In this document: positions 1 to 24,524 of the stretch, piece by piece
How positions within the stretch are numbered: position 1 is the first letter of the stretch
How the letters are laid out: every line of letters begins with the position of its first letter
Assembly (NCBI RefSeq): GCF_000003605.2
Contig: NW_003139817.1
Coordinates: 155,013-180,020, forward strand
Direction of reading: 5' to 3'
Origin: Saccoglossus kowalevskii
Taxonomy: Eukaryota > Hemichordata > Enteropneusta > Harrimaniidae
DNA length: 25,008 bases
Program-made: the position numbers and the translations under genes
Notes under the pieces: generated by a model
The model's input: the letters and a program-made list of their open reading frames with translations, nothing else
Told to the model about the DNA's origin: nothing
Database searches by the model: none

Positions 1-195
1 TAGTAGTCACAGAGTAGCGTCCATCTAAAAACAGTGTCACGGTGTTTTTCGGAACCGGGAAATATCCGCTGGATCATGTATTGTCAGTAAGATCATTCAA
101 TAAGAAGCAACCTCATTCAGTTAAAGCCAATGCTCCTTTTTCATACACTATTTGATACTTTTTGTGTTTCGTCCATATATATATTTATAGTTCTC

Positions 196-245
196 TGACC
201 ATGGTCTCATTTTAAACAATTTATCACAAAACCAGGCATTGCATT
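196..245 (+). repeat. Direct repeat partner of 1238-1285
   Basis: ACCATGGTCTCATTTTAAAC and AATTTATCACAAAACCAG recur at 1238-1285 with a few differences, indicating a small duplicated or dispersed unit about 1 kb apart. Confidence 0.6.
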
Positions 246-703
246 TAATATGTTAATGTGAATACTAAGGATACAACTATAAGTGGAATCGTGCGTATAC
301 TAAACTCAATACTATATTTAAAATTAATGGGGTTCATTACAAATAATTAAATATTAACTATGTTATAAACCAAATTCAATGTAGTAATGAGAAACGAGTA
401 AGAATAATTAATTAATAAGTAAGTGATAGTATTTTTGGAGAATATGTAATAGTTACAATTAAGCTTCTATAAAGGTTAAAGTGCATTCGAAATTAGGTTA
501 TGTACTAGTTTATGTGTTCACGGCAAGTATATGGAATTTGTGACTACATGTTGAGTAATTCACACTATAATGACTTGTAAATGGAGTAATTATAATTTAA
601 AACAATAAACTAATGTAAATATTGTATAAATTCACATTTGTTTTGTTGCGATGTAAATTACTCCCAGAGCCTTGTGTAATGTAGTGTAGTGCTTACTTTT
701 TTG

Positions 704-757
704 CCGCGTTCTGTTCTGCGTGTAAAATACATTGTTTATTTACATAAAATTTACATG
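704..757 (+). repeat. Dispersed repeat, partial copy 1
   Basis: Shares the GTGTAAAATACATTG...TTTACAT stretch exactly with 6435-6460, preceded by a CGTTCTGTTCTGCG block; the rest of the repeat is not recognisable. Confidence 0.6.
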
Positions 758-1237
758 ATGTTTCATCAATCAACACAAATATTTTTTATACAAAACGTGT
801 TTGAGAACAAAACAGAGCTTTGGATTTGTTTCCTGTTAAACATGTACGTAAATATCAAACTGTCTTTACGAAACTGGATAATAACTTTGCGTAACACCGG
901 GTCAGATTACAATATTTTAGCTGGCCTAAACCAATCAAATGCACTTGTGTGCCTCAGCTATTGTTGTACTTAAACTTGAACAAAATATCTCAGTATTCCA
1001 TTTATTGAATTCGGAAAACTTGTGACTTTCTGGGATAGACTGTTTTTTTTGTTTTGTTTTTTTTGGATTGTTGACATCAAAATAATCTAGCTGCAATAAG
1101 CGTCATATTGGTTTCAATTAAACATGTAGACAAGCATATCAAACAGAGCCTGTGGCATTTCCTTAATTTACGTAAATTTATTTAGTCGGGCAGCAATCTG
1201 TCAATGAATGTCTATATCACCTACGTATGTGTTTATA

Positions 1238-1285
1238 TATCACCATGGTTTCATTTAAATCAATTTATCACAAAACGAGAAACTA
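1238..1285 (+). repeat. Direct repeat partner of 196-245
   Basis: Same orientation as the copy at 196-245 (ACCATGGTTTCATTTAAATC, AATTTATCACAAAACGAG). The AT-rich surroundings make the true borders unclear. Confidence 0.6.
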
Positions 1286-2326
1286 TATCCAATTTGAAAT
1301 ATACGTGATATCACCGCTATGATAGTCTTAATCTTTTTGTTATGTGATGTGTGGGTTAATGCATTATTGCTGTCAAATACCTCATATAATCTGTAATGTT
1401 CAGTGAATATAATATAATATAATTATCACTAAATAAATTGATGTTTTGCTCATATTAATTCTATTGATATTTTGTACACGAGTCGCCGGAGAATGTTTCG
1501 CCGATGTCACGTTTTACTATTATCTCAAATCTACATGCCGTAACATAAAACCAGAAACATCGTGGTATTCAATCATCTCTTAAAGTAGGACACACCCTAG
1601 TCAGTTTCGAATTATTCTTCAAGGACCAACACTATACAACTATACACGATATCTAGGTTTAGGGTTGGGGAAATATAGATATCAATGTTATTGTCAATGT
1701 TAGAATCAACGCTCTCACGTGGAATAGTTGTTTTATTAGTGGTTAGTTCGTTGTCGCTGGTGAGAAAGAGAAATGAGCAACAAGTAAACCAAAATGCGTT
1801 TCAAGCACCATTTCCAGCCAGAGAAGTTATTATTGCTTCTGTGAGGCGAATCTAGTAGTGCCACAAAGGCTTTTAGAACAGCTTGCTTTAACATGTGTGG
1901 ATGATTTTATTTTTATGCTGACATATAATCACACCCTAGTTGACACTTAACTATTATTTCCTTTTCCAGAATACACCATCACTTGCACAAACTTCTGAAC
2001 TTGATTTATATAATTCTGGTCAATTAATGGTTTTTTACCAATAGCACTTAAAAGCATAACATTTTCCGGGCTCTTCATTCATTTTTCAATAACCTTTACC
2101 TTCCCAACATTCTAGTGTATCACCCAGTTAGTGCAATCATTGTTGGTAGACACAGGCGCATATTTGGCTTACATCTGCTTTCTTGTCACAATCGTTCTTT
2201 AAAAAAACAATTAGTATCGTTGGCGACTATGGCGGCATCTTTGTTGGTAATAGAATGGCAAATTAAGTGAGTTTCACAGTCTTGCTCTCAAGACATTTCA
2301 ATTCTTGCATCATGTTGTTATCATAG

Positions 2327-3240
2327 TCATTTAGGTCTTAGTTTCAGTGAATGAACTGCAGCCATGTCATCAGCTACCCATATTGCATTCTGTGCTAGTT
2401 CTACTTGGATGCAATGTGATTCATCTAAGCATTGCAACGATGCTTTGTCGGGCTTGGCAATAGACAGTGGCACTGACGTATTCAAATGGCACAAGTCTCA
2501 ATTTAAACTTCATGCCATTTAGACAAGAAGTCCGAATCATTGACGATCTTCTTTAATCACTGTAGTGGCAGCAGGAGTAATTTTGTTCTTGTCAAGTTCT
2601 GTGTTTAACTTCAGTGATCAAAAGATGTCATTAGTAACTTTGGAGTAATCTAACTCCAGTTGATATTGAATTTGTTTTAAAGAGTTTGCAAATGGGTTGA
2701 TGCCATCATACCTTTGCAGAGTATTATTGGGGTTTGTGACATGCTGCTAGTGAAGTTTTTTTCCATATTGTACGTTTTCTAGATATTCCACAGGTACACA
2801 CCAGAGACATGCAATGTCTTGTATGAAACATGTTTCAAGCAAATTATCATTTTGAGATCTTGAAATATTGCCATCTTGAAATCTAAGAAAAAATGGTGGT
2901 CCACATCGTTACCCATTACTCACTTGAATTGCAAACTTAGCATCAAATTCTAGAGGCACTCAGCGATAGTTGTCACGGTGTTATTTCCATTACTCTTTGT
3001 GTCTTGTGCTGCATCAATATCTTTTATTGTGCTATGTATAACTATACCTTGTCTGGAACGTACAGCTTGTGACTGTGAACCATTCTTGACCAAGCCATGT
3101 TCTCTAGTCTATTATCATTGTAGAAGTGGTTTATCTTAACCGTTGCCCTTTTTCCTGCCATTTGTTCTGTGCAATACCAACCCCAATATAAGCTTTGCTG
3201 CTTACTTCTCACGATCATGTGCCAATTTTGTTGCTCGAAT
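2327..3240 (-). pseudogene. Decayed protein-coding sequence (multicopy invertebrate family, unnamed)
   Basis: Read on the minus strand, protein-like blocks survive across stops and frameshifts. In order: IRATKLAHDREK, GVGIAQNKWQEKG, GLVKNGSQSQAVRSRQG, NDNLLETCFIQDIACLWC, LQRYDGINPFANSLKQIQ, VIKEDRQ, VPLSIAKPDKASL and IWVADDMAAVHSLKLRPK. The last three recall an uncharacterised protein family common in marine invertebrate genomes (DRQLFGxLL, PxSLAxxDGSLRKT, xxDGMAxxQ motifs). That link is from memory and inferential. More than ten in-frame stops make it non-functional. Confidence 0.6.
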
Positions 3241-3810
3241 TTGTGAGATTGTTATGTTGTATCCATATTAATCCTTCTTCCTATAATCCTTGAACCTGTA
3301 AAATATCGTCGTGTGTTCAATCTCATTATTTAACTGTGCATGGCCAATGTATGGTTTCATTTTACTTTGCTTCAATCTTTGACTGAATCCGGCCAAAGGT
3401 GTTTGCAAGAGTATCGTTTAAACAACAGCCATGGAGAGTAGCTATTGATTGATTGATGTCAGCTGCATAAACTAAGGTATTCGCCAGGAAAAATTCTGAA
3501 CCAATATCATGTTATACACCACTTAATAGCAATTATAGAATTATTCCACCTGCACAAGTATCATACTAGTATTTAAATACAGATAAAGCACGCCACATCT
3601 GATTTGTAAGCGTTGTTTATGCAGTGCTTAGATATTTAACAGGTTCCCTGTTATTCTATAATTTCCAAATTCTGTGGGGGAAATTAGGGTTAGGCAGAGT
3701 GGTAAGTGTGGTAGAAACAGCTTAATGTGTGCGCTGTCGGTTGCTCATTTATAAATCAACCTCCTTCGGAATCCGAAATAGCTAAGTCGTTGAAGTCTAC
3801 CTTTATAGCC

Positions 3811-4085
3811 CCGTCACACCAGAACGTTTTGGTCAGCGTTCTCTGAACGTTCCAATCGTCCAATTTCCGAGCGTTCTGGAACGAGGTAGACACATCCAGC
3901 GTTCGATTAACGAGTGCCTAACGTATGACTAGCGTGTTCCTAACGCACGAGGAGCGTGTAATGAGCGACCAAGTAAGATACCCCTGGAAATCATTTACGT
4001 GTGCTAACGTGTCACTAGCGCGCGACGAACGACTTTTAAACGTTAAGTGAGCGTGTTGAGTGTGTATCTAACGTTACGTCGTTAA
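3811..4085. repeat. CpG-dense, ACG/GCGT-rich block
   Basis: Against a CpG-poor background this stretch is packed with CpG in recurring words: AACGTT, GAGCGTG, AGCGTTC, CTAACG. It begins CCCCGTCACACCAGAACG, which looks like a DNA-transposon end, but no inverted partner is visible at the right border. It has no open frame of note. It is probably a non-autonomous or truncated element; a gene-free CpG island is the alternative. Confidence 0.55.
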
Positions 4086-6395
4086 TTTGACAACCATTTA
4101 GCAATCATTTTGCCCTCGTTTTTAACATGCACATTAGATCATGCCGCACACTCTATCATACGTATGCTGTATACTCTGCTATACGTATACTATGTGGCTC
4201 AAACATGTACATATCGCATATTCTTGCAACTACATTATTGTGTACATTTGTCAGTGGTTATGACAATGTGAAACATTTATATAAAATGTATTCTATTCTG
4301 GGCAGCATAAGAAGTTTATAAATAGACTTGTTTCTTGTCACTTGCTTCCTCATTTGAGATTTTCTTCTACAAACAAGTGCGCAATAAAAGGTGTACAATT
4401 TGTGTTTCGTGCACACTATAAAAACCATCTTTTGTTTATAACCTTGTTTCGTACATTTATGTTTGCGATTCCCAGTGCGCAGAAATTGTTTGTGCACACT
4501 TTAGGACACGAGATTTTCACAGTCATGTAATTAACACTTGAATACACTACTGAAAAATACGTATGGGAATATTTTAACTATAGATTATATTTCACTAATT
4601 TGAGCGAGATAATGAATTGTTTGAGCAACGGACATCGAGTTACGAAAACACTGAGTTACAAAAATACTACGGCCGGATATTTGAATCCAAGCCACTTTTG
4701 CGAAACCACGCCCAAATTGTGAAAATCGTAAAAGAACATGTCCAATAAGTATAACGTCAACATCATCCACACTTACAGACTTTTCAGGGGCAACATAAAC
4801 AAGCTGAAAAAATAATTTTCACAATTGGTTTCAGTATCAGTAGTGGATTCACCTTCCATTAATTCATGCACATCTATGTATTTGTCAATATACCACCCAC
4901 ACCATCCACTCATACGCCATTAATCACGTTCACTACGAGTTGTTATCATACTGTAAAGATCTGAAAGACCTTCCACAGCATCAGAGTATGTAAATAAGGA
5001 ATATAAACATCAAGTCAAGCATAAAATATAATATAATGTTTGCAATACAAACACTTATCAACATCGTGGAATTTTGAAATACGCTTTGTATCTGTTTTTC
5101 CAGGCACCATTCACAGAAGCTACATATCATGTAAAGAAATGGTGACAATTTACTTCATAGTAAAACAGCAATAGGCGTAATGTAGATGTTCTCAACAAGG
5201 AAACTAGAAGAGTGAAAGTGTCTATATTATTAACCAGAACAGTTAAAACAGGGTCTAATCACAGGTTAAGAAATCATTGAGCAGATTCTGCTTTGTGATC
5301 TGAGTCCACCAGATTCTATAAATCAGAAAAATATGTTACAACTCCAGTACCAAAAACTTCATATAATACATAGATCCATAACAGAAATTAGTGCCACGAT
5401 TTCTGTGATGTTGTTTTTACTCTATGTCAGTCTTCGCAGCACCTGTGAACTTGTAGTGAATATCTAGAATCCAATGTAGGAGTTAACCTTTACGATACAC
5501 ATAGTTCTCAGGAAATTGATGTGGTAGCCAAGTTAAAACAAGAATGTAAATACATACTATAAAAGATTGAGGAATTCCATAACCACATAATGTATAAAAG
5601 AATAACTAAGACCTAAATGTCATGCTGCTGTAAAACCAGGTTGATGGGTGGAACACATTCCAAAAATACACTAAGAATGGATTCAGTACATGCAAAACTC
5701 CATGCATTTACTCTGTTTAACATACTCACAAAAACATTGCCAAGTGGATAACAAAATCTGTTGTTTATTGGAAAAGGATCGTACAAATATTTATCTACAG
5801 TGCAGCGAGGTATAAATACAATGCATAAATTACTACATATTAATTGCACAAATGGTTAGACTCGGATGGCGTAGTTTGTGAATGTCATTGATCATTTATA
5901 TTCTCATTGGGGATTACCCTATTGAAAATTGGAGGAGTGTTTGAAGGTAAGATGGACATGAGAAAAAGGAGGCAAAACACACAATGACTGTTCAGCACCT
6001 TGGGGACAAATAGGGAGAAGATACTAGACTACCAATTTACTGAAGTTTCTTTTAGAATGGGTAACCCCTTTACAAATGACAGTTTGATATCTAAAAAAGA
6101 AACTAAACAATTGAAATATCACAAAAACAATAGATTTAATAATAATAAATACAGCATGTATAGCAAAATATAAGGCTGAAAAGCTGTTTACTCTTAGGAA
6201 AATTGGGACATAATTTTGTTGCATATCGATCATAATGGAAACATTCCTTTTCAGAATGATTATTCTGTAAAAATTACCATTTATTGCACACATGTGTAAT
6301 GTATTTATATAGTCAATGCAGCAAATATACTTGTATGAAATACTCATATTTACATTTTTCACTGAACATTGTCACAGATGGTTTCAGAATCATTT
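4086..6395. other. No gene seen
   Basis: Several open frames under 115 codons occur on both strands, with low-complexity or membrane-like composition expected from AT-rich DNA. None resembles a known protein or sits between convincing splice sites. Confidence 0.5.
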
Positions 6396-6502
6396 AAAGT
6401 CCTGTTCAATATGGGACTAATAGCGACGTATACGTGTGTAAAATACATTGTTTATTTACATGAAATTCGAACACGCGCTGCGCGACGACCACCGCGCTTT
6501 AA
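6396..6502 (+). repeat. Dispersed repeat, copy 2
   Basis: Matches 17052-17153: GATATGGGACT/AATATGGGACT, then a GTATAC block, TTTACATGAAATTCGAACA, GCGCTGC and CTTTAAG. It also shares a 26-base identical stretch with the segment near 720. It carries more CpG than copy 3, where CG is often changed to CA or TG. Confidence 0.75.
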
Positions 6503-9002
6503 GTTATCCAAAGTACCTTCATTTGTTATCTATTGATATGTAAATTAGTTTATTGTTTTGATCTAATTACACAATATATTAAATTCAAATGATCTCTAAA
6601 ACCACTCATCCAATTAGTTACAAGTACAAAACCAAGCTGATACCAAATTTCTGAATAATATAACCTGTTTTTGTCTTTATGATTTATTTTCAAAAACACA
6701 AAAGCATAATGCAAGAATACAAAATGCAATTCACTTTTTGTTCAAGTTTTATAATGGTTTCATGTGCTCTTTTCATTAATTAACATAATAAATGGTTTTG
6801 TATATATCCGAAACTATGTAGGTGGCATATTTTACTTTATTAATGTCGCTACAAGTGTTTTCAACAAAAAGACTATAGACAAGAGTGGTTATAAATGTTG
6901 GCAGACTTATTTTACCCAATTTATATATTGCAGTGTTAAGTACACTGTATGTGAATTATTATGGCTTGTCATCTTAACTTTTATTCATTTCATTAAATAA
7001 ATGGGTTTCTACATAATGCAAAAAAGCAAATACATGCTAGTCCAGTATGAGTATCCACAATGACATCAAATAATGTCTATCCCATGTTACAAATACTGCA
7101 AACAAGTATACACCATTCACATTATCATGTTTATAGCTATTGAGTTTTGAAAATTGGTAAAACAGCATAAAATATATAAAAACTTATTAATACATGTGCA
7201 TTAATAAAATTTTAATAAAATTATTTCATTTCTACCATAAATAGCAATAAAATATGGCTTTATTACAATAAATAGAAATAAATAGAACATATTGGTGAAT
7301 CTAAGAAGACAACATAAAAGTTATGTATATACAATATATTTACATGATGACTGGAAAACCTTTGTAATTGTAGTGGTTACCAATGTCATAAATAGTGCAG
7401 TTGTCATGGCAAATAACAATATGATTACCTAACCCTAATTAATGCTAAAATTCAAATTTCACAATTATAGTAATTATTGAGCCATTATCTCTGAGATAAA
7501 TTAACACTACAGTTTATTATTAATATGTTATTATATTAGTTTATCATCTAAATTTACACACCTCGACAACCAACCATCATTTGGCACGACCAAAATATAA
7601 AATGCCGGATTCATGATTCTTTGGTATGTGTATCATCAATAAAGTGATAACATAAGTAAGATTGCACAACCCAAGTTATATTTACTCAGGGAAAATATAT
7701 AAAAACAAAACAAGTAGTATACTTCACTGTTAAGCAATCTTGTAAATAACATGCATCAACAATATTACATAGATAAAATGAAGAAGAAAAAATGTTGAAC
7801 TGTACAAAATTTAAACTTTATACAAATTGACGTGGCAGTTTATAGTTAATGCTTCAAAAGAAACTCAATCCAGCAACTACATCCAATAAAATACTACCTA
7901 TCAATACTTGATTATCTAAGTTTTAAATTCTCAGAAAACAAGTTTAATTGTTCACTACGTATCTGCTGTTAAAATGGTTCAGTCAATATAGATGTGAATA
8001 GCAGCAAAGCAATTACATGTTACAAATAAAAAGGTGTCCCAAAGAACTGACAATCGTATATAGTGTACTTATTAACACATAGCTGGCTGATATTGTTTTT
8101 TTCACAATTTCACTATTGGCTAGAGGCTTTCAGCAGGAAATGTGTTAAACATAATAGCTCAATTAGAAGTATACAGACTTAAATGTTCAAGGTGCATTTA
8201 AAAGTCAGAATGAAATCTGTAAGCATTTCATTAATGTTTTAGAAATTTTCATCTTAACATTTCCATGGCTATTTCAAAACACTGAATGGTAGCCAGGTCA
8301 GCAAACACTAATCTGGTGTCAATACAATTATGATCTATGATAATGGAGCAGAAATTGAATGCTTTCAATGAGTTTCTAAAAAACAAGTACATTTTTGTAT
8401 GACCTTCATCAATAACATTAGCAATGAAAAATATTAAAAACTTGCTATGACTAGCTACATATATGTATCTAATCAGGACATATTAGGTGTTTTGATAATT
8501 GTATGCTACTAAAAATGTCATGGCTAATGAGAGGTATATGTAAATATTCAATATATGAACCATATTAGACAACTAAAAACTGCAACATAAATAAAACTAC
8601 TGTACATACGATCAGAGGTAAATAGAAAACATTCCAGGGAAAAAACACTATCATTCTTATTAATAAATACAAATTTGGCATTATTGTAAAAAACTGTCAC
8701 CTGTTGTTAATGCTGTAGTACAAGTTTTTTGTTTGTTCTTTTTTCTAAAGAGAAATCAATTAAATATTTTCTGGACCATCAAAGCGAGACTTTGCTAAGC
8801 AGAGATGACAGTGAACCTGTACATGTTTAATCTGGTGCTTATTCTACATCAGCAATGCCAATTCTCCCTGAGTGTTTAAAATTGGCAATACACATGATCT
8901 AACTTACCTACATATTATCATGCAAAGTATGAGGCAGCAGTCTACTGTGATAGGTGGGATGACATTTTAACATTCTAGCCTATATTATTCATATATTTTT
9001 TT
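6503..9002 (-). other. 3' untranslated region and downstream flank of alpha2/delta
   Basis: The message must continue left of the stop at 9003. No AATAAA signal on the minus strand is seen in the first 500 bases. Minus-strand AATAAA occurs at 7259-7264, 6980-6985, 6836-6841 and 6683-6688, so the 3' UTR may be long, but the true end cannot be chosen. No other gene is seen here. Confidence 0.4.
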
Positions 9003-9104
9003 TTAGAAAAGCCGGACTATCAAAAATGCACATGTTAGATGAGTAAGTACAGTGAATATTGATGCTGATATGCTAGATCCTTTGCCACAATCACTGTAAT
9101 CAGC
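9003..9104 (-). CDS. alpha2/delta terminal coding exon 22 (residues 567-599, stop)
   Basis: 102 bases, acceptor TTGCAG, stop TAA at 9003-9005. It encodes ADYSDCGKGSS followed by a hydrophobic tail to LIVRLF, equivalent to DYTDCGG plus hydrophobic tail in vertebrates, where the tail is a GPI-anchor signal. The Cys-Gly-Lys-Gly-Ser-Ser stretch is the likely anchor-site region (inference). Confidence 0.92.
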   Translation of the reverse strand, partial: ADYSDCGKGSSISASIFTVLTHLTCAFLIVRLF

Positions 9105-12100
9105 CTGCAATCAAAACAGATAGTCATAATGAGACAAGAAATCATTGTACAAGACAAAGACATCTGATTACTACTAAATTATAGACCCTAACACTATGAT
9201 GATATTTCACAAACCTTACAACTAACCCTAGAATCATGCAATCATGTAATTTTGGACAAAAGGCAATACTTTCCATTTGATAGTAATAAATATGTGTGAA
9301 TTAAAGAATATATTTTGAAATGTACAAATTTTTATGCAAATCTTGTACTTGTCTTCAAATGTTTTCTGCATTTCTTGTTATTGTATTCAGTTAGTGGCAA
9401 TCTGCATTATTATGCACAGTCAGTCTCCCGAGGTTCACACTTTAAGTGTTTCAAAAGCACATACAATGTATGACATACAATTGTTCCAAAACACCAAAGA
9501 ATCTGATAGTGTCATCAGAGGACAAGTTCAGGACATGTATGCATCTAGTGAGCTTATTAGTGTACATTGATTACATATTACTTACTTGTGGATGATTATT
9601 ATAACAAAAACCAGGCCTCATTCTATATCTTGGCTGTGTTGCAGCTACACAGGGATCTGGGCCATCTAGTGAATCAGGCGGTCAAGAAAAAACAACAAGA
9701 AAACTATTTGGGATTGCATATCACATACACTACACACTAGTGAATAACGTTCTGCAATTGGAAGCACATTTTCAGATCAACTGAAAAATATTTAACATCC
9801 AAAGGCAGTATTCTTTAACAATTCAGTTAGTGGCTTCCAAAAACTACTGAATATTTGAACCGAAACATTTTAATATATTTGATTTTCTTCAAATTATAAA
9901 ATTAATCACTTTTTTTTGTTTTTGGATTTTCACTCTTGAAGTAGAAATTTAATAATAATTCATACCACATTATAAAACAGATAAAACAGATAAAACAGAT
10001 AAAATGACATTAATACATCAGGTTCCCAACCACATGCAAGATTAATGAACACTTGTTTAAAAGGATATCTTTCTCTGGTTCTTGCTTAACTATAATATTA
10101 GGACAAGACCCACAATCAGGTTCAATTATTACTAGAAGCAAATTAGTACCAGGAACTCGACTCACACTCCAGTCCCTAGAAATATAAACAAAACACACTT
10201 AATATACACAGTATTAACCTCAATATTCAAAAATATATACACTTAAATTTATATACAAATCTATTTGTATGTATCAATGTATACAACTCTATTTCTATTA
10301 ATATATATACCTATATACATTTATTTTTATATACCTATACACGTAAAAACTTGATACAAAGCAAATTAGCAAACCTATATAGAAAGGCCACCTGTCTATA
10401 AAGGCCAAAATCCCAAAGTCTGTATTTGTATTAGTGTAGACATTGTTCTGTATAATATTAGAGACATAGATAATGGATTCAAAAAAAAAACTTGCATGAA
10501 CAAAATTGATGTTTTGACATCATCTTTTAGTGGTCTGATTTTAGTGGTTTGGGACACTATGCATATAAACAATAGCACGTCTGCAAAGGTTTGTAAGGTG
10601 AACATTATTCTGTTAATTCTACTGAATTGCACCTGATACAAATTCTTTTAGTGGTCTTAGATATTACTTTTTATCATCATCTTTAGAAATCATTATTGAG
10701 ACCAAAGCAGTTGGCAGATATCCACAAATCAACAATAGTTCTCACCTGCTGCAGTTATTACTACATACAAGTTGGTCACTGTATTCTTGACTCATTGGAC
10801 CATAATAATATTGTTTTTCAAGTTTAATACAACTTATATTTTCTTCTTTCTTGGCACTTTCTTCCTCTTGAGCAAGAACTGCAATAATAAATCGTTAAAA
10901 CAAAACCTATTAATGAGTTTTTGGAGCAAGTAGGTAAAGTAGCAAACAACCATGTCACATTTGGAAGGTTAGTTTATAACTTTGTATCCACATGCACCAA
11001 GACATTGTTAATCATCTTGAAATGAACAGCAAGCAAACATTGTTGCTGAACGGATTGATAAAACTGGCAAACACAGGCTAATCTACACAGTTTCCTTATA
11101 GATAAATTAATGGCACACCAACAAAAGTGTTAACTAAACATACTTGACAGCTCCCAAAACCAAATTTCCAGCATGTACCTACTGCCGAAAAAGTGAGAAA
11201 CTATATTCTACAGGTACAGGTGATGTGTACCTGGTAGGTGATACTATAATTATTCTTAATTCTGGGGCTGTCAACTGGCTGGCAGTAATAAGGCATACTT
11301 TGTCTGATTTAGACACACAGTAGTAGAAATTGGTGTCGCGCCATAAACAAGAACATAAAACTCCAGTAGAACTTACCGGTTGTTGACCAGGATGAGAAGA
11401 GTATATTATAAAGATTGTACTGAATATAACTCCTAAAAAAAATGAAATCAAAGAAAGCTTTGTAAGAACTCTTATGTCTTGTGAGTATGGAAGGCATATG
11501 AAGTAAAAATAGGGGTTTTAAAATTAACCATTAGTCTTGATGCATTTTGTCTTCTAAGGTATGTAAAAAAAGTGTGAGTACTCACCATGAAGCTTTGGTT
11601 GCCCACCAGTTAAGGGTGAGAGCTTCTGGTAAAGATGGCTGCAAAGAAACCAAGCATATCCATCAAAAATAATACGTAATAGACTGATCATCCATATAAA
11701 TTCTGGGTTTACATAAATGCATGAATTCATCTTCAGAGAACAGAACAGAATATTACTTCATGTAAGCTACAAACATGAAATACTGTCGACCTGATGAAGG
11801 ATGCCCTCAATATTTTTGTTAAAGTTCCCTCCATGTACATGAAATTTTACAGATGTTTTGCTAAGAAGTGAATTAATGAACTTACAATATGCAATGATCT
11901 AGCACCTGCTGCTGTAGCTTGTTTTTCTTCCGTTTTCAGACAAGATGCTTGAAAATCAAAAGATTCAACTCTGTAAAAAAAAAAAAAGAATTGTTAAATT
12001 GTGGACAGAAAACTATTGAACCTTCGGGAGATTGTTCAGTTAGTTNNNNNNNNNNNNNNNNNNNNNNNNNNNNNNNNNNNNNNNNNNNNNNNNNNNNNNN

Positions 12101-15100
12101 NNNNNNNNNNNNNNNNNNNNNNNNNNNNNNNNNNNNNNNNNNNNNNNNNNNNNNNNNNNNNNNNNNNNNNNNNNNNNNNNNNNNNNNNNNNNNNNNTATT
12201 CAAGTTTTTTGAATATATTTACGACAATTATTAAACTACCAAATACACAGATTCAAAATAAGGGGGCTACAACACCAAACATGACTATTTAACTTACTTG
12301 TCATAGACACTAGTATTCACCATTTCATTTAATATATCACCTTCTATTAAACCAAAGAAACTGCCAATCTGAAAATAATATATATTATAATTGAGTACCA
12401 AGTTAGAAAAAAATGTCAAACTTTATGTAGATTTGTAAAAAAAATGTTCTTATGTCCCTATATGAATGCACAATGTGTGTACTTAGAGGAAAAATAAAAT
12501 ACCGGTAAATATATTTACTAGATTAAAGAAACATCTATACAACAAAACACAGGCACACTTGTGAACATATGCAATGCCACAATCCATTATTGCACTTACA
12601 TATGAAACATGTTCCTCTTGGTTGCTAGCAACAACAAAACCACCATTGTCCAATAAATAGCAATTTAAATGCTGCAGAATAAAAAAACAAAACATTTGAA
12701 TTTGGAAAATATATGGATGACACAAAAATTAGCCAAATTCATTTGAACAATAAAATCAATTGTCAATTTCAAACAATATTAAACCAATCAAGTTGCAGAT
12801 TTTCAAGCTAAGATTGCATCAGCAGTAATGAAAACCAAACAGATTGGCCATATACTAGACTGTTGACAGTCCTCTGGCCTAATGTACCCCGGTAATTGTG
12901 TTTTGTAGACACTCGAACGCTGAATGCGTTCGATGGGAAATGTGAACCAATTCATGCGAGGGACTTTAGTCCTGAGTGACTGTCCCCTTCTGCAGGTTTC
13001 TAGTTGATATGAATAATTTATAGTTGATACTGACGTCACAAAATGAATTATATTAACATAATGTATGCAAATTTATTCTAAATAACCCCTAAATGACCCC
13101 ATGAGTACAGTTGTTCACGTTATGAACTCAATGAATACAGTCACTCTTAATTTGCATATGAAAGTACCCGATCTGGTAATCTTAACAGTGAATTGCAGCA
13201 CCGAACAGTCGGTCGCGCCTAACGGCATTCCATACTTCCTGTCCCGACATTCGCAATTTATTCACGCCTGTTACGCTTATACACAATATTTATTAATAAT
13301 AACAGATTAATATTAGGTACGACCGACTGTTGACAGTCTAGCCGTATACATGTATGCAAGCACAAATTGCATGTCCAAAGATTAGACTTACATGGTTTTC
13401 ATTGCTACATGTACGGTAACAATCCTCACCAAAACACTGTGATAGTATCAAAAAAGAAATATACAAGTCAAGTATGAAACATGAACAGTGACAAAATTCA
13501 ACACAGGGTGGATATGGAATTTTCAATGTGTCTAAATCAACAAACATAACTAGGATAATTATAATACTCATTTATTATATAAGATTGAAATATAATAAAC
13601 TAAACTATTCATTATTACTTCATTTTTACAATAATCACCATAGCATTCATAAACACTGAATCAGCCATCTTGACAACAAAAACTTCAGACATAAATGCTG
13701 CATATTTCCAGAAGTTACATACAATATGTAAAAATTACAGTTTAATTGGACACAGGTGCCTGGCTTATTAGGATAGGAAATTGCCATATAAGGGATGAAG
13801 AACCTATTTGGCTTGTGCAATTCCCCAAGGCACTCTATCAGAACTTACATTTCAGTTGTTATTACAAGGATACCAACAAATATGAATTCAGACAGTGTGT
13901 AGTAACATCATGGGTTACCTTATCAGTTTGTTCTTTCCAGCCCATATTGAAAAATTCTTGTTGTAATGTAACTTTGATCACAGCTGGCATGACATCTTTT
14001 TCTAAGCGCACTGCTTTACTGGCACTGACGACTGTCGTATAATTGTCGTCTCTGTTACGTCCTGTGACATAACAGTAAATATATGTAATCTAACTAGTAC
14101 AAACTTTGTTTTCTAACTTTCCAATATTGAAATGAGGAATTATGCTCATTTTCATAGCTGGAGCTATAGAATAAAACTATAGAATACTGTAAAACACTTT
14201 ATTTTCGCTTGGAATTAATTTTCGCTAAAGGAATGATTCAGTGAAAATAAAATCCAGCGAATATACCTTTTTTCCTATATTTTACATTCAACTTGTCAAA
14301 AATCAGTGAAAATAAATTCCATACACATCACCAAAAATGTCTTTTCAGCGAAAATTAATTCCAGCTAAAATAAAGAATTTTACAGTAGTTATACAGAAAT
14401 AGTGACTGGCATATACAGGTATATGTTTGTCCATTGCATATTTACAGGGAAAATAATTAAAGATGGACAACTTGATATACCGAGAGTGAGAGTGAGAATT
14501 ACCCACAACACAACACAAATGAAATATGAAAAGAGTGAATGAATCACTTACCACTATTATGGGGTACTGATATAACATAATCATTGATATACAAAGCTCT
14601 TTCATAATAATCTTGCTTCCATGGATCACGTAGGTTATCCAACTCCACATCACTCAATTCAAGGGCAACTCTGATTTACAAAATACAAACAACAAAGCGA
14701 GCAAGATTAGATACAAAGCATCGGGTAGATTTTTCCATTAAAACCACTAAAAAATTAAAATTACATTCATCATCAGTGAAATTAGGAACAGATCAATTAA
14801 TAAATATCTAACTCTTTAAGGTGTAGCCATGAAAACAAGAGATGTAGTTTCATCAATAGGATTTTTGTCAATTTCAGTTGACATCAAGATTTATCGCCAC
14901 TGTGTGTTATTCACATTAGACAACCCTGGTATATTGTCTATTTAACCACAGATTGTATAATTAACAAGCATTTCATGGCAGTCTCCATTATCAAATTTAA
15001 GATTATATAGTTTTGTTTATAGTAATATAGTTTGAACATAAATATGTCAGAGATATGGATTCAGAAGCTGATTTTTTTAATATTAAAATGATTGACATTC

Positions 15101-18100
15101 AGTCATCTTGTATCTGATATCAAACTAGTACTTGTTCATATTGGAAGGTATTGCTCTGGAACAGCATCAATTAAAACAAAATGGCTGACTGGTCGGCCAT
15201 TTTGAATTGGATTGTCATACAAATATATCTGTATATCTATGACATGATGTATAATGAAAATATATAAAATGTGAACATAATCAGTCAAAGCATGTCAGAC
15301 ATATGGCTATGGAACCGCATTCATCAAAACAATCTGCCATTTTGAATCAGACTCAAAAAACAAAATGACATGGATTAGGGGCCTATAATGTCCAATGTAT
15401 GTACAAGGTTTGAACAAAATCCATCTGTAAACAGTCAAGATCCGGTTCTGGAATGCCATAAAATGCTCGATTTCAAAGATTTGTCAGCACAAAAATGGCC
15501 ACCATTTGGCCATCTTGTATCAGATCGTAAAACAAATTGATGTGAATATATATAATATTATGTATGTATGAAGTTTGAATGTAATCGGTCTAGGGATGTC
15601 TAAGCTACACGTCTGAACACACACACAGACGAACAGAGGGCAACATAAGTCGCCATTGGACTTAAAAACATGCTCTTGACCAATATCAGAACTTTTTACA
15701 ACGTATTCAGACAATTGAAATGCTGATTAATAAAATAACCAGTAGTCCGAGGTTTCAGGGATGTGCAATTGGAACATAAACTGTCCCCCTTCTAGTTAGC
15801 TCATTATCGGTACTGAATCATTCATACTTCACAAACTGGTACGTCTAGGTTGTATTATTAAATTTAATATTAATATTATGAGAAAATTACAAACTCACTG
15901 TTTTCATGTAAACAAATCAGAACCCCACTTATAAAAGCCCTTTTTGCGATTCATTTCAGGGAACATTTAGCGATGATTTAAAATTATCTGCGTTTTGACA
16001 ATTAAGATTTTGCTTAGAATGGTATGGGAATAGTAAAAACTCTACATACATACGTTTTAGGGTATATCCTTGTGAGGCCACCCATAGTACCAACAATTAG
16101 TGACTCAACACCAAGCCTAAAGAAGAGAAAAACAAACAGAAATCATTATGGCAAACAAATTTCAACTAAAATCAAGAAACGAACAGGTTAGAGTTAGAGT
16201 TAGAGTTAAATTGAAACTGCAATCATATGACGCAACTAACTAGGCAATGCAAATATGTTCTTAAACTGAGGAAAAATTACATGAAAAAACTATAAACAAT
16301 TATATTGTTAACATCAAGATACAAAGTTGAGTCTCATCTGTCTTCTTTAAATTATTGAATTCACATAAAACTGCAACTCAATAATAAATATGACATACTC
16401 TATCAATGATGCCAGTGAATCATTTCCTTGCCCAGGGAACTTAGCAACCCAGTAATTCTGCTCCAAATCTTCAGTGGCATAAAGATCAATCAATAGTCTT
16501 GTTAACATCTCATGGTCACCTAATAGGAGAACAATTATTTTAATTTAAAATAATGATGGTATTGATTATTATCATAATAGTATAAAGCAATATCACTCAG
16601 TAAAGTATTTCATAGAAATATATGTGATGTACAGGATCAGATGTGAACTGGCTGATCAATGAAATCTTCACGAGAGAGTGTTTGACAATCATTCTGTGAA
16701 ATAGCTACGACAGGGAATTAGAGTAGAAAAAATTGAAAGATTACAAACCTTGATAATATGTGTATACTTACAATCTGAGTTATTATGATTTTCTAAAAAA
16801 TCAGATATGAATGAATCTACTACTTCAGCTGTTGCATTGTGTTTCTGATCTGGACAGAACATCCTGCAAATACAAGGAAAACAATCTTCTTTCAATCAGA
16901 GACACAAGAAGAGAAAATGTTTTAAAATTTGTACAATATTTGATGGCGAGGAAAAAATCATGAATTATGAAACTTTGTTTCTGTCAAAATACCGGTCCTA
17001 ACAAATGCCTTCAGATTATCCATCAATTGTTGAAGGGTGGGGTTTGTCGGCGACGTTCTGTTTGATATGGGACTCGTAGTGATGTATACAATGTATGTTT
17101 TGTTTACATGAAATTCGAACATGCGCTGCACAATGACCACTGCCCTTTAAGACAATGCCTGCTTAACACAGTGTTTTTCCCATTCATTTTGGCTTTCAGC
17201 AGGTCGTAATAAGGTGTATGGAAACCCATAGCTTTAAATTAAAGAAAAAAGACATCAGTGAGGAAGTGATTGTTTTGATACACATACTTACCACGGTGCT
17301 ATAAGAATATAACAGTCATCTGAGTGTAACTGATCTTTTGTCTGAACTACAAAAATAGATCACAAACAATTTTCAAAAATAATCCTAATTGTTAATATAA
17401 TGCAATTTTATTATACATTGGCAGTGAAAATAGAATCATAAAACATGTACAGATGGGTTTGAAAGTGATAGATGAATCTTCTTTATTTGGAAAATGTGTA
17501 CCACACTTAAAGTGCCAATCTGCATGTAGCAGACATTTTAAAATACATGTATGATGATATCCATGGTATTCACTTTATTGTCAATCCATTCACTATAAGT
17601 AAATGAACTATAATCTGTGAATTATAGACTTACACTCATTAAAACTTCTATTATTTAAATCCATACTCCATAAATTGAATGATGGAAGAGCAATGGCCAT
17701 ACTGAAATATAGAACCATTTCATGATAAGACTTTCAGAATAAAATTCAATGATCATGTGTAAAACAAGAGGGAATTACAGTGAATCATAGAAAAAATGTA
17801 CACTTTTCAGTTATTTTTCCTTACCTGAATGATGTACTGTTTATAAAGCGATACCAGTAGGTCATATTTATTAAAAATACATATCTCTGAAGAAAAAAAT
17901 GACGTACATCCAAATTACATACCACCAGTGATATTCCTTTAATATGCATGAAATGATGATGATGATATTCATCCAAGCTTAAAATAGTATTTACATAACC
18001 CAAAATGAAATAAATCTCACCTCAAATAACAACTCATTTGTATTTCTATGAAGGGTTTCTGTAACAATGGTCCCATTTTTGCCATCAATCATAGCTTTTC

Positions 18101-21100
18101 TCAACTACAAATGGAAAAAAAACATGTACATGATTGTATATGATGTATACCTTGGAGGCTGCATACACAGTTGTCATTTACAGACAAGTATGGACATCTT
18201 TGGGAACATAAGGGTCCCTGTAATAAATACTATAATATATACTAAGCAACTCAATAATAAACATTCCCTGTTAGTTATCAAATTTAAGATATATACCGTA
18301 GTTCGTTTATAGTAATATAGTTGGAACGTAAACATGTCAGAAGTATGAATCCAGAAGATGATTCTTGTATCTGATCATCAAACGAGTATTTATCCATATT
18401 GCTCCGGAACAGCATTAATTAAAACAAAATGGCCACCGGTCGGCCATTTTGAGTACATCTATATATCAATAACATGATGTAAAACGAATATATAAAATTT
18501 GGACATAATCAATCAAAGCATATCAGACATATGGCACTATAGAAGCGAATTCATTTAAACAAAATGGCTGCCAGTCAGCCATTGTGAATCCGATCGAAAA
18601 ATAAAATGACGTGCATCAGGAACTCATAATCTCTAGTGTGTGTACCAAATTTGAACAAAAATCCATCCATAAATGCTTGATTTTGATGATTTTTTAGCAC
18701 AAAAATGGCTACCATTCGGCCAAATTGTGACAAATTGATATGCATATGTATAATATTATGTATGATGTATGTGTGAAGTTTGATTGTGATTGAGAGGACG
18801 CACAAAGGTCAAAACATAACTAATAAATACCTGCTCTTTTTCTGCTGTCGGCAATTCAACTTCTAACAGATCAACATTTGGTGGTTCTATCAGGTAACCT
18901 AACTGTATATATATACACACACAAAATACAAACAAAATGCAAAAGAGTTAGCAATCTTGGTAGAAAAAAACACATTCGTATTTGCAGACACACACTAGCA
19001 TACAATCTGTCATCTCATTATGTACATGAATTGGCCAATCAGAGGCCAAGATGAAAGTGCATGTGAGAGGAAGAAAATTTGAACTCTATGCATGCAGTGG
19101 TATATATTTCAACTCAAGTCAAAATAATAACTTTGATTAATTTCTCTGTCATTAAGAGGTTTCTTGCCAGATCCAACATCAGATTCAGTAATTTCTCAGT
19201 AGTATGTGTACATCGTTGAAACATAAAATACATCAATGAGAAAATGTCAGTGCTGATTGGTTATCAGTCACATGTTATCTTCAAATGGCATGTGATATGC
19301 AAATGAGGTATATACAGTCAAAAATAACTAACACGCATCATTTGTACATCAGGGTGTGCAACAAGGAGACTCAACTAATAACACATATAATGACATCACC
19401 AAGATTTGTATGCAAGAAATACAAGGTTACAAATGATGCAAAACTAGAATAAAATATTTTTTTCAATAATAAGACTACAGCAGTGAGTGAACTGAATACA
19501 ACTATGCAAATCTGGAAAACTGAAAATAATTGATGGTAGGCATGACAACCAAGACAAAAAAGGTAAATGAAAATTGACATGGAAGAAGCTGCACATATAC
19601 TCACACTGAATTTACCCTACATTAAACACAAACAAAAAAACATAATGTACGATCATTTTTTTTTTCGCTATTTTTACACAAACTTTCTGGTAAAATACAG
19701 AATCTGTCAAAAAAGTAATTTATGCCAACACAAAAGACACTCATGGCCAATTGAATTTGTTCATTCACTCTGAGGAAATTCAAAGTGAGGTTCAAAAAAA
19801 AAAAAGTATATAGCAAGCAGCTGATGGCACCGATATCTGAAAAATGTGGCAAAAAACATGAATAAAAAAGTAACGAGGTGAAAATAATGCTTCATTTCCA
19901 GTGGTTTCTGAAATGAAAAAGTTGGAAACACAATTGGGATGACAAGGAAAGCATGGAATGGTGCTATGCAGAAAACACCAACAAACTTTGGAAGCAAACA
20001 ATATCATCACTATGGATACAAAATAATAATTAATGTGATGGAAGGTGCCTGATAAAGTGGAAGGACAGCGGATTAAAAAAAATACACATATACACAAATA
20101 CACCAATTAATACTGACGCATACTGACAAACTATCAACATCTAGATTCCCCACCTGCCACGGCCAAAATAAACTCCACTCTGATATATTCTACACAATTT
20201 GGCTTTGGGACCGATGAATCAATGTATAGATATCTATACATTGATTAATGATTTGTAGAGATTTACCCACCATTAGGAAGTAACATTAAAAAAACATGCA
20301 AGAAAGGTTTCTTGAACTGGCTGCATACTGTCACATGCAGTATATGCCTTAATAAGTTCTTCTCAACAACAACAAAAATAGATTTGATATTATTATCATT
20401 ATTATTATTAATAATAAGATACAATCATTCACTGGACAATTTACAACCCTGCTAAGTAGCAAGGCATTAACAGAGAATACTGACAATGTTCACAATACAA
20501 GTACATCACAAAGGATGTACCATTTGAAATAAACCAACACGAATATTATCATTATTGAATTAATGTTCATTATCACATTCAGTTAAATAAAAAAAAAGAG
20601 TACATTACAAAGAAATAGGCAAAAACAAGGTTATGAAATACCATCTTGTTGATGGATAATACTTTCAATAAATTTGACATGCAGACAGAGACAGACAGAC
20701 AAAAAGTTCAATGGTGGGTAAATGTGGTGATTGGGAAATTTTATCAACGCAGTGAATCTATACTTTAGTCCCAATGTCAACTAAGAGGCAGTCAATATGA
20801 AAGTTACTTGATTTTATCATGAAAACATGAATTCTAGCTCTCAGCACAAATTTGTTCGGAAATTTTATGATCATTTGTAATATATCAGAATAGGTGAGAA
20901 GTGGTAAAATTACCCAATATATACCAAATATGACCAGTTTGATATTTTGCACTCAAATAACATTGGTAGAAACTACTACATGTTACAACCAATTTGATTC
21001 ATGCTGAAAACTAGCTAATATGTTTCCACATTCAAACAGGTAACAAGAACTCAAGGTTTCATTATTTGCCAGTCTTGTAATATGGTCCTTGCCTCATTGA

Positions 21101-23354: not shown

Positions 23355-23971
23355 CTATAATAGAGGTATACAACGAAATTACAACGAAAATGGAAATCAA
23401 GCTAACAACTAAAGCAAGAGATATAACATATCTGGATGGAAACTTTGAACAGTTTGATTAACTGCACATACCAAACACTGGCAATGGATTCAGAGAACAG
23501 TATAGTTAACTGAAATGTCAATCCATCCAGAGATAGTAAAAGTTATATTATTCCACAGACTGAAACAGAAATATTTAGAACCAGGCATTTCATTTGCAAT
23601 AACGGTATGAACGGCAAGTGGACATAACATTCCATATGTACAACATCAAAGCATCATTTTAGGATATGTGGAATACATGCTGGCCTGTATCAAAACTAAT
23701 CAAACTTAATTCTCAAGAAACTGTTTGTGTTTAAGTTGGCGTGAAATATTACTATGAACGTAAGTAAGCAAGTGAAAAAAGTGCGTTTTTTCCAAGTGCA
23801 AGTCACGCGTTATGGAAAGGAAAATATGTATAAACAAGACCAGATAGGAAAATAATCTCACAAGGCATTGGGTCTTTACAAAATATTCATGCAAACATTT
23901 ATAAGAATACAATTAAAGCGAGGAAAGAATCTATGCAGGAAAAAGGTACCTGCTCTCTCTAATGAACTTAC

Positions 23972-23998
23972 TGTCTTTGTGTCTGATTCAGAAGCGTG
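23972..23998 (-). CDS. Candidate 27-base exon
   Basis: A good CTTCCCTCAG acceptor and a strong GTAAGT donor flank 27 bases encoding HASESDTKT, phase 0 on both sides. It would sit just before the LGPASYAF exon. It is not needed to match the family, so it would have to be an alternative or lineage-specific insert, or a chance pair of splice sites. Confidence 0.33.
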
Positions 23999-24524
23999 CT
24001 GAGGGAAGACACCAATATAGACCAGAAAACATTACAACTATTACTACTACATGTTATTATCAGAGGAAATATAGAACTAGGTTGACAATTGCGATTTAAA
24101 TATAAGCAGCATAACAAAAGGAAGGGGGAGGGGATGATTACATGTAGTGAAAGCATGGGGGTTTGTTATAGATAAAAAAACTAGGTTTTGCTGGAGTGTT
24201 ATTTAAAAAAAATATCATGCTATGTTTATTATTTAAAAAAAAGGCTTGTATTTGGCACAATATGTGTGTTATTATGTGTAAATTTTGCTATCCAGTTGCA
24301 TGTTGAAAAAAAATTGCAAATGAATTGGCAGTTTTCAATCATGAAGCTATTTAAAAGTAACTGAAGACAATGCAGTAAACCAGCAAGCTGAATTTGCAGT
24401 TTTGCATTTCAAACATAAAGCCACTGTTTTATTCTGGGGGTAATTGAAACCTGAATGCACAACTGAAAACTAATTGGAATAATATTTTTAATTAGTACCG
24501 GTAATGAAGCTCTATAAGTATTAC

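Follow-up and report, generated by a model that had tools for sequence, protein, structure and literature searches.

We propose that a gene on the minus strand of the window (the whole stretch of 25,008 nucleotides analysed here) contains a U12-type intron close to its 3' end, with the donor at 10068. Homology identifies the host as an alpha2/delta (CACNA2D) family calcium-channel subunit gene. From the sequence we put the probability of a U12-type intron at this donor at roughly 0.92, a figure that spans both of the 3' ends considered below, AC and AG. In its preferred AT-AC form, the intron and the exons around it are laid out as follows.

10746..10878, minus strand: exon M, ...QEEESAKKEENISC...VCSNNCSR, with a GT donor at 10745; ends picked by eye
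10069..10175, minus strand: exon N, 107 nt, DWSVSRVPGTNLLLVIIEPDCGSCPNIIVKQEPEK, directly upstream of the AT-AC intron
9669..10068, minus strand: predicted AT-AC (U12-type) intron, 400 nt, phase 1
10060..10068, minus strand: predicted U12-type 5' splice site, ATATCCTTT, an exact consensus match
9681..9689, minus strand: U12-type branch-site-like TTTCTTGAC, 13 nt separating its A from the exon
9586..9668, minus strand: exon O, 83 nt, VDGPDPCVAATQPRYRMRPGFCYNNHPQ, with a valine codon split by the AT-AC intron
9105..9585, minus strand: ordinary GT-AG intron, 481 nt, GTAAGT ... TTGATTGCAG
9003..9104, minus strand: last exon (P), 102 nt, ADYSDCGKGSSISASIFTVLTHLTCAFLIVRLF and then the stop, encoding a C-terminal hydrophobic tail

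The family assignment is carried by the tail that the last four exons encode. This tail matches the Pfam family PF08473 (VGCC_alpha2) with 86.7 bits (cut-off 22) and an E-value of 2e-24, and it matches 13 distinct alpha-2/delta-1 chain sequences in the PDB at E up to 0.01, the best being 7jpk chain F at E = 1e-20. Exon M aligns with that chain starting at residue 973, and the first part of the last exon (9104-9003) falls within the alpha-2/delta-1 alignment of the four-exon tail; exon O by itself gives a weak match (E = 0.13). In 7jpk chain F the segment corresponding to the start of exon O reads SDGPDPC, its serine being residue 1040 or thereabouts. In exon N, DWSVSRVPGTNLLLVIIEPDCGSCPNIIVKQEPEK is preceded by a single base that completes a split codon and followed by a single base, in keeping with a phase 1 intron. 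When 10175-10069, 9668-9586 and 9104-9003 are joined, the result is a stop-free frame reading ...EPEK-VDGPDPC...NNHPQ-ADYSDCG...RLF, which terminates in ...NNHPQADYSDCGKGSSISASIFTVLTHLTCAFLIVRLF and a stop codon.

Farther upstream the homology is sparser. All three minus-strand frames of 9500-24501 were run against solved structures, and two of the three minus-strand frames of 9501-24501 against Pfam. Segment 12689-12591 matches PF08473 (3.3e-7), and 23378-23244 together with 12401-12300 gives a weak alpha-2/delta-1 match, with E = 0.047 for the whole frame and neither segment significant singly; the third minus frame of 9500-24501 returned nothing against solved structures at E up to 1. The remaining upstream exons were assigned by eye. 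A run of 151 N lies within the gene at 12046-12196, between exons I and K. The GT-AG intron at 9105..9585 includes a 32-bp tandem repeat (2.1 copies, 9325-9389).

U12-type introns have the donor consensus ATATCCTTT and a branch consensus of approximately TTCCTTRAC. At the joint AAAG/ATATCCTTTT...TTTTCTTGACCGCCTGATTCAC/TAGATGGC, the donor matches its consensus exactly and TTTCTTGAC departs from the branch consensus at one position. The 13 nt between the branch A and the exon fall inside the optimum of 11-13 nt given for U12-type introns in two papers (PMC6717393, PMC3584512). The last 25 nt ahead of the AC are 76% pyrimidine and overlap the branch site; U12 introns are described as being without a distinct polypyrimidine tract (PMC3584512). 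Other donors of the gene, 13 listed and two more (H and I), are all GT, although they were chosen by eye as GT sites and serve as a yardstick only. Within the AT-AC intron there is also a perfect 9-bp tandem repeat (ATAAAACAG, 3.7 copies, 9972-10004). An earlier note on this DNA had claimed these coordinates, the AT and AC termini, the donor, the frame and a branch site with its A 13 bases from the intron end, and each of these holds on the minus strand.

Taken singly, such signals arise by chance at an appreciable rate. Among 300 dinucleotide shuffles of the window, with both strands counted, the exact donor ATATCCTTT was present at least once in 101, and is thus not rare alone in DNA this AT-rich; 145 of the shuffles contained a match to the branch pattern followed at the right distance by AC or AG. 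An ordered pair of donor and branch site, 40-3000 nt apart, appeared in 3 of the 300, a count that flatters the AT-AC intron because the branch pattern was defined after the site had been seen. The stronger argument is one of location: the donor/branch pair sits exactly where alpha2/delta homology breaks off and resumes, at the joint that the homology requires.

Other joints can also keep the frame open, and we enumerated them. Pairs were required to leave the frame open to NNHPQ, with donors lying 20 to 420 nt inside the exon and introns of at least 40 nt; GT-AG, GC-AG, AT-AC and AT-AG pairs were covered, which places other non-canonical ends (AT-AA, for example) outside the enumeration. This yielded 80 in-frame, stop-free pairs: 28 AT-AG, 25 GT-AG, 18 AT-AC and 9 GC-AG. 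Ten versions were scored against PF08473, namely the read-through and nine of the 80 pairs (6 of the 25 GT-AG, 2 of the 18 AT-AC, 1 of the 28 AT-AG and none of the 9 GC-AG). The AT-AC pair ending at 9669 scores highest of the ten (86.7 bits), followed by the AT-AG pair ending at 9666 (82.8) and an AT-AC pair ending at 9681 (79.5). GT-AG joints in frame do exist, yet all six of those scored fit the family worse than the AT-AC joint: 76.1 bits for 10050/9666, then 74.3, 70.8, 60.8, 57.7 (donor 10113) and 39.7.

A second yardstick orders the two leading joints differently. In local alignment to a 60-residue piece of alpha-2/delta-1, scored with BLOSUM62, the AT-AG joint 9666..10068 comes first (128) and the AT-AC joint second (118), with the best GT-AG joint in fifth place (112). 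The two yardsticks thus agree on the donor and differ over the last three bases of the intron, which concern the following site.

9666..9668, minus strand: alternative AT-AG 3' splice site, TAG right behind the AC, 3 nt downstream; in frame, with loss of the valine

Read on the minus strand, 9666-9670 is AC/TAG, which places an AC and an AG acceptor in one frame at a distance of 3 nt. It is conceivable that the U12-type intron ends at the AG, giving EPEK-DGPDPC, or that both ends are used and produce isoforms differing by one valine. We regard this as unlikely, and its share of the probability is contained in the 0.92 given above. Minor introns of the AT-AG type do exist (PMC8280824), and this end keeps the frame and takes the top BLOSUM score; its Pfam score is lower, however, and the AT-AG combination is apparently disfavoured (PMC3584512). 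It would also lengthen the branch-to-exon distance to 16 nt, beyond the optimum. Because AT-AG looks disfavoured in U12 introns and the branch spacing would be stretched in this way, we propose that the intron probably ends in AC. The earlier note had held that only this splice restores V-D-G-P-D-P-C. Taken literally that is true, but an in-frame D-G-P-D-P-C also results from the AT-AG end at 9666, as an in-frame G-P-D-P-C does from the GT-AG joint 10050..9666; the rival AT-AG acceptor, 3 nt further on, escaped the note.

That GT-AG joint belongs to a further possibility, a U2-type intron running from a donor at 10050 or 10113 to the CACTAG acceptor (end 9666). A T-rich stretch precedes this acceptor, and GT-AG pairs make up 25 of the 80 that keep the frame open. 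In a rough U2 matrix, in which 13 other donors of the gene score 1.2 to 6.6, the donor at 10050 (AGT/GTTCAT) reaches only -8.2, and the one at 10113 (ATT/GTGGGT) 0.2, not far under the weakest of the 13. Donor 10113 could therefore conceivably serve as a splice site, but the product it would give reaches just 57.7 bits, and its use would remove CGSCPNIIVKQEPEK, in which an alignment shows conserved residues. With the product of donor 10050 also below the AT-AC joint in Pfam score, we consider a U2-type intron very unlikely. The sequence is best read, in agreement with the earlier note, as an alpha2/delta gene with a U12-type intron of the AT-AC kind.

The intron might instead be kept in the main transcript, in which case the read-through translation would end at the following site.

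10010..10012, minus strand: stop codon reached on intron retention

Translation through the intron yields ...EPEKDILLNKCSLILHVVGNLMY and then this stop, in line with the early stop at about 10010 given in the earlier note. No stop interrupts the frame before 10010, and the protein would then be an alpha2/delta subunit with no anchor. We find it barely credible that this is the main product: the Pfam score drops to 47.6 bits, and two intact downstream exons with a conserved C-terminus would be left unexplained.

If the U12-type intron is removed as we propose, U11 would recognise the donor and U12 the branch site, as follows from established knowledge of this intron class. The minor spliceosome would join EK to VDGPDPC, and the last two exons would then be translated, supplying the remainder of delta along with the hydrophobic signal for anchoring. 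In mammals, membrane anchoring of alpha2/delta is ascribed to its hydrophobic C-terminus. Retention of the intron, by contrast, would lead to the stop at 10010 and to a product without the conserved DGPDPC...YSDCG segment and the hydrophobic tail. Because the junction of exons O and P lies about 425 nt further on, such a transcript would be expected to be exposed to nonsense-mediated decay.

In searches for other genes at E up to 0.01, no Pfam family was found in the three plus-strand frames or in the three minus-strand frames of 1-9002, and 1-9000 is apparently DNA downstream of the alpha2/delta gene. No tRNA and no Rfam match at the gathering score were found in the window.

The value of the AT-AC intron lies mainly in annotation and, upon comparison of its position, in dating the alpha2/delta minor intron. 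Introns of this rare class escape most gene finders. A predictor limited to GT-AG would probably cut short or scramble the C-terminus encoded here, which makes it a clean example of relevance to annotation. Should the position prove to be the human one, the alpha2/delta minor intron would date to the common ancestor of both lineages, and the case for a long dependence of channel expression on the minor spliceosome would be stronger. The known dependence of channel expression on the minor spliceosome is itself unchanged by the intron at 9669..10068. Minor introns in the alpha2/delta family are already reported for human, and the one described here is a further example.

A search for relatives carrying this joint found none encoded in 69 candidate stretches from viral contigs and none in 93 from bacterial and archaeal contigs; an animal relative was hardly to be expected among the 93, because that collection consists of bacteria and archaea. 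In the literature, all four human genes for the auxiliary alpha2/delta subunits of voltage-gated calcium channels are given as minor-intron genes (PMC6865273), and CACNA2D1 to CACNA2D4 are each named as such (PMC8767276). With a minor intron reported in all four, finding one in this family is to be expected and no surprise. The earlier note had left open whether alpha2/delta relatives share the intron, as an ancient minor intron or a lineage-specific state; the four human genes, each reported to carry a minor intron, favour the ancient branch. Among the matches listed, the parts of the literature available contained no statement of the position, or of the AT-AC or GT-AG subtype, of a minor intron in any alpha2/delta gene.

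By analogy with the human genes, we infer that this minor intron is most likely both ancient and conserved and would be removed by the U12 spliceosome, and that the intron at 9669..10068 is most likely the counterpart of the human alpha2/delta minor introns. It is improbable that the minor intron instead occupies a position unlike the vertebrate ones, having been gained or moved in this lineage, with the ACTAG end giving two isoforms that differ in the valine before DGPDPC.

Among known systems, the minor introns of human CACNA2D1 to CACNA2D4 resemble the present one in gene family. A fruit-fly list of 19 U12 introns includes an AT-AC intron in a T-type channel gene; its entries 3 to 19, with part of entry 2, name pore genes of calcium channels and none for alpha2/delta (PMC2831892). 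The minor introns of the CACNA1 and SCN pore genes, according to the same source, are of the same intron class; those genes encode pore proteins, however, whereas the intron described here lies in the gene of an auxiliary subunit.
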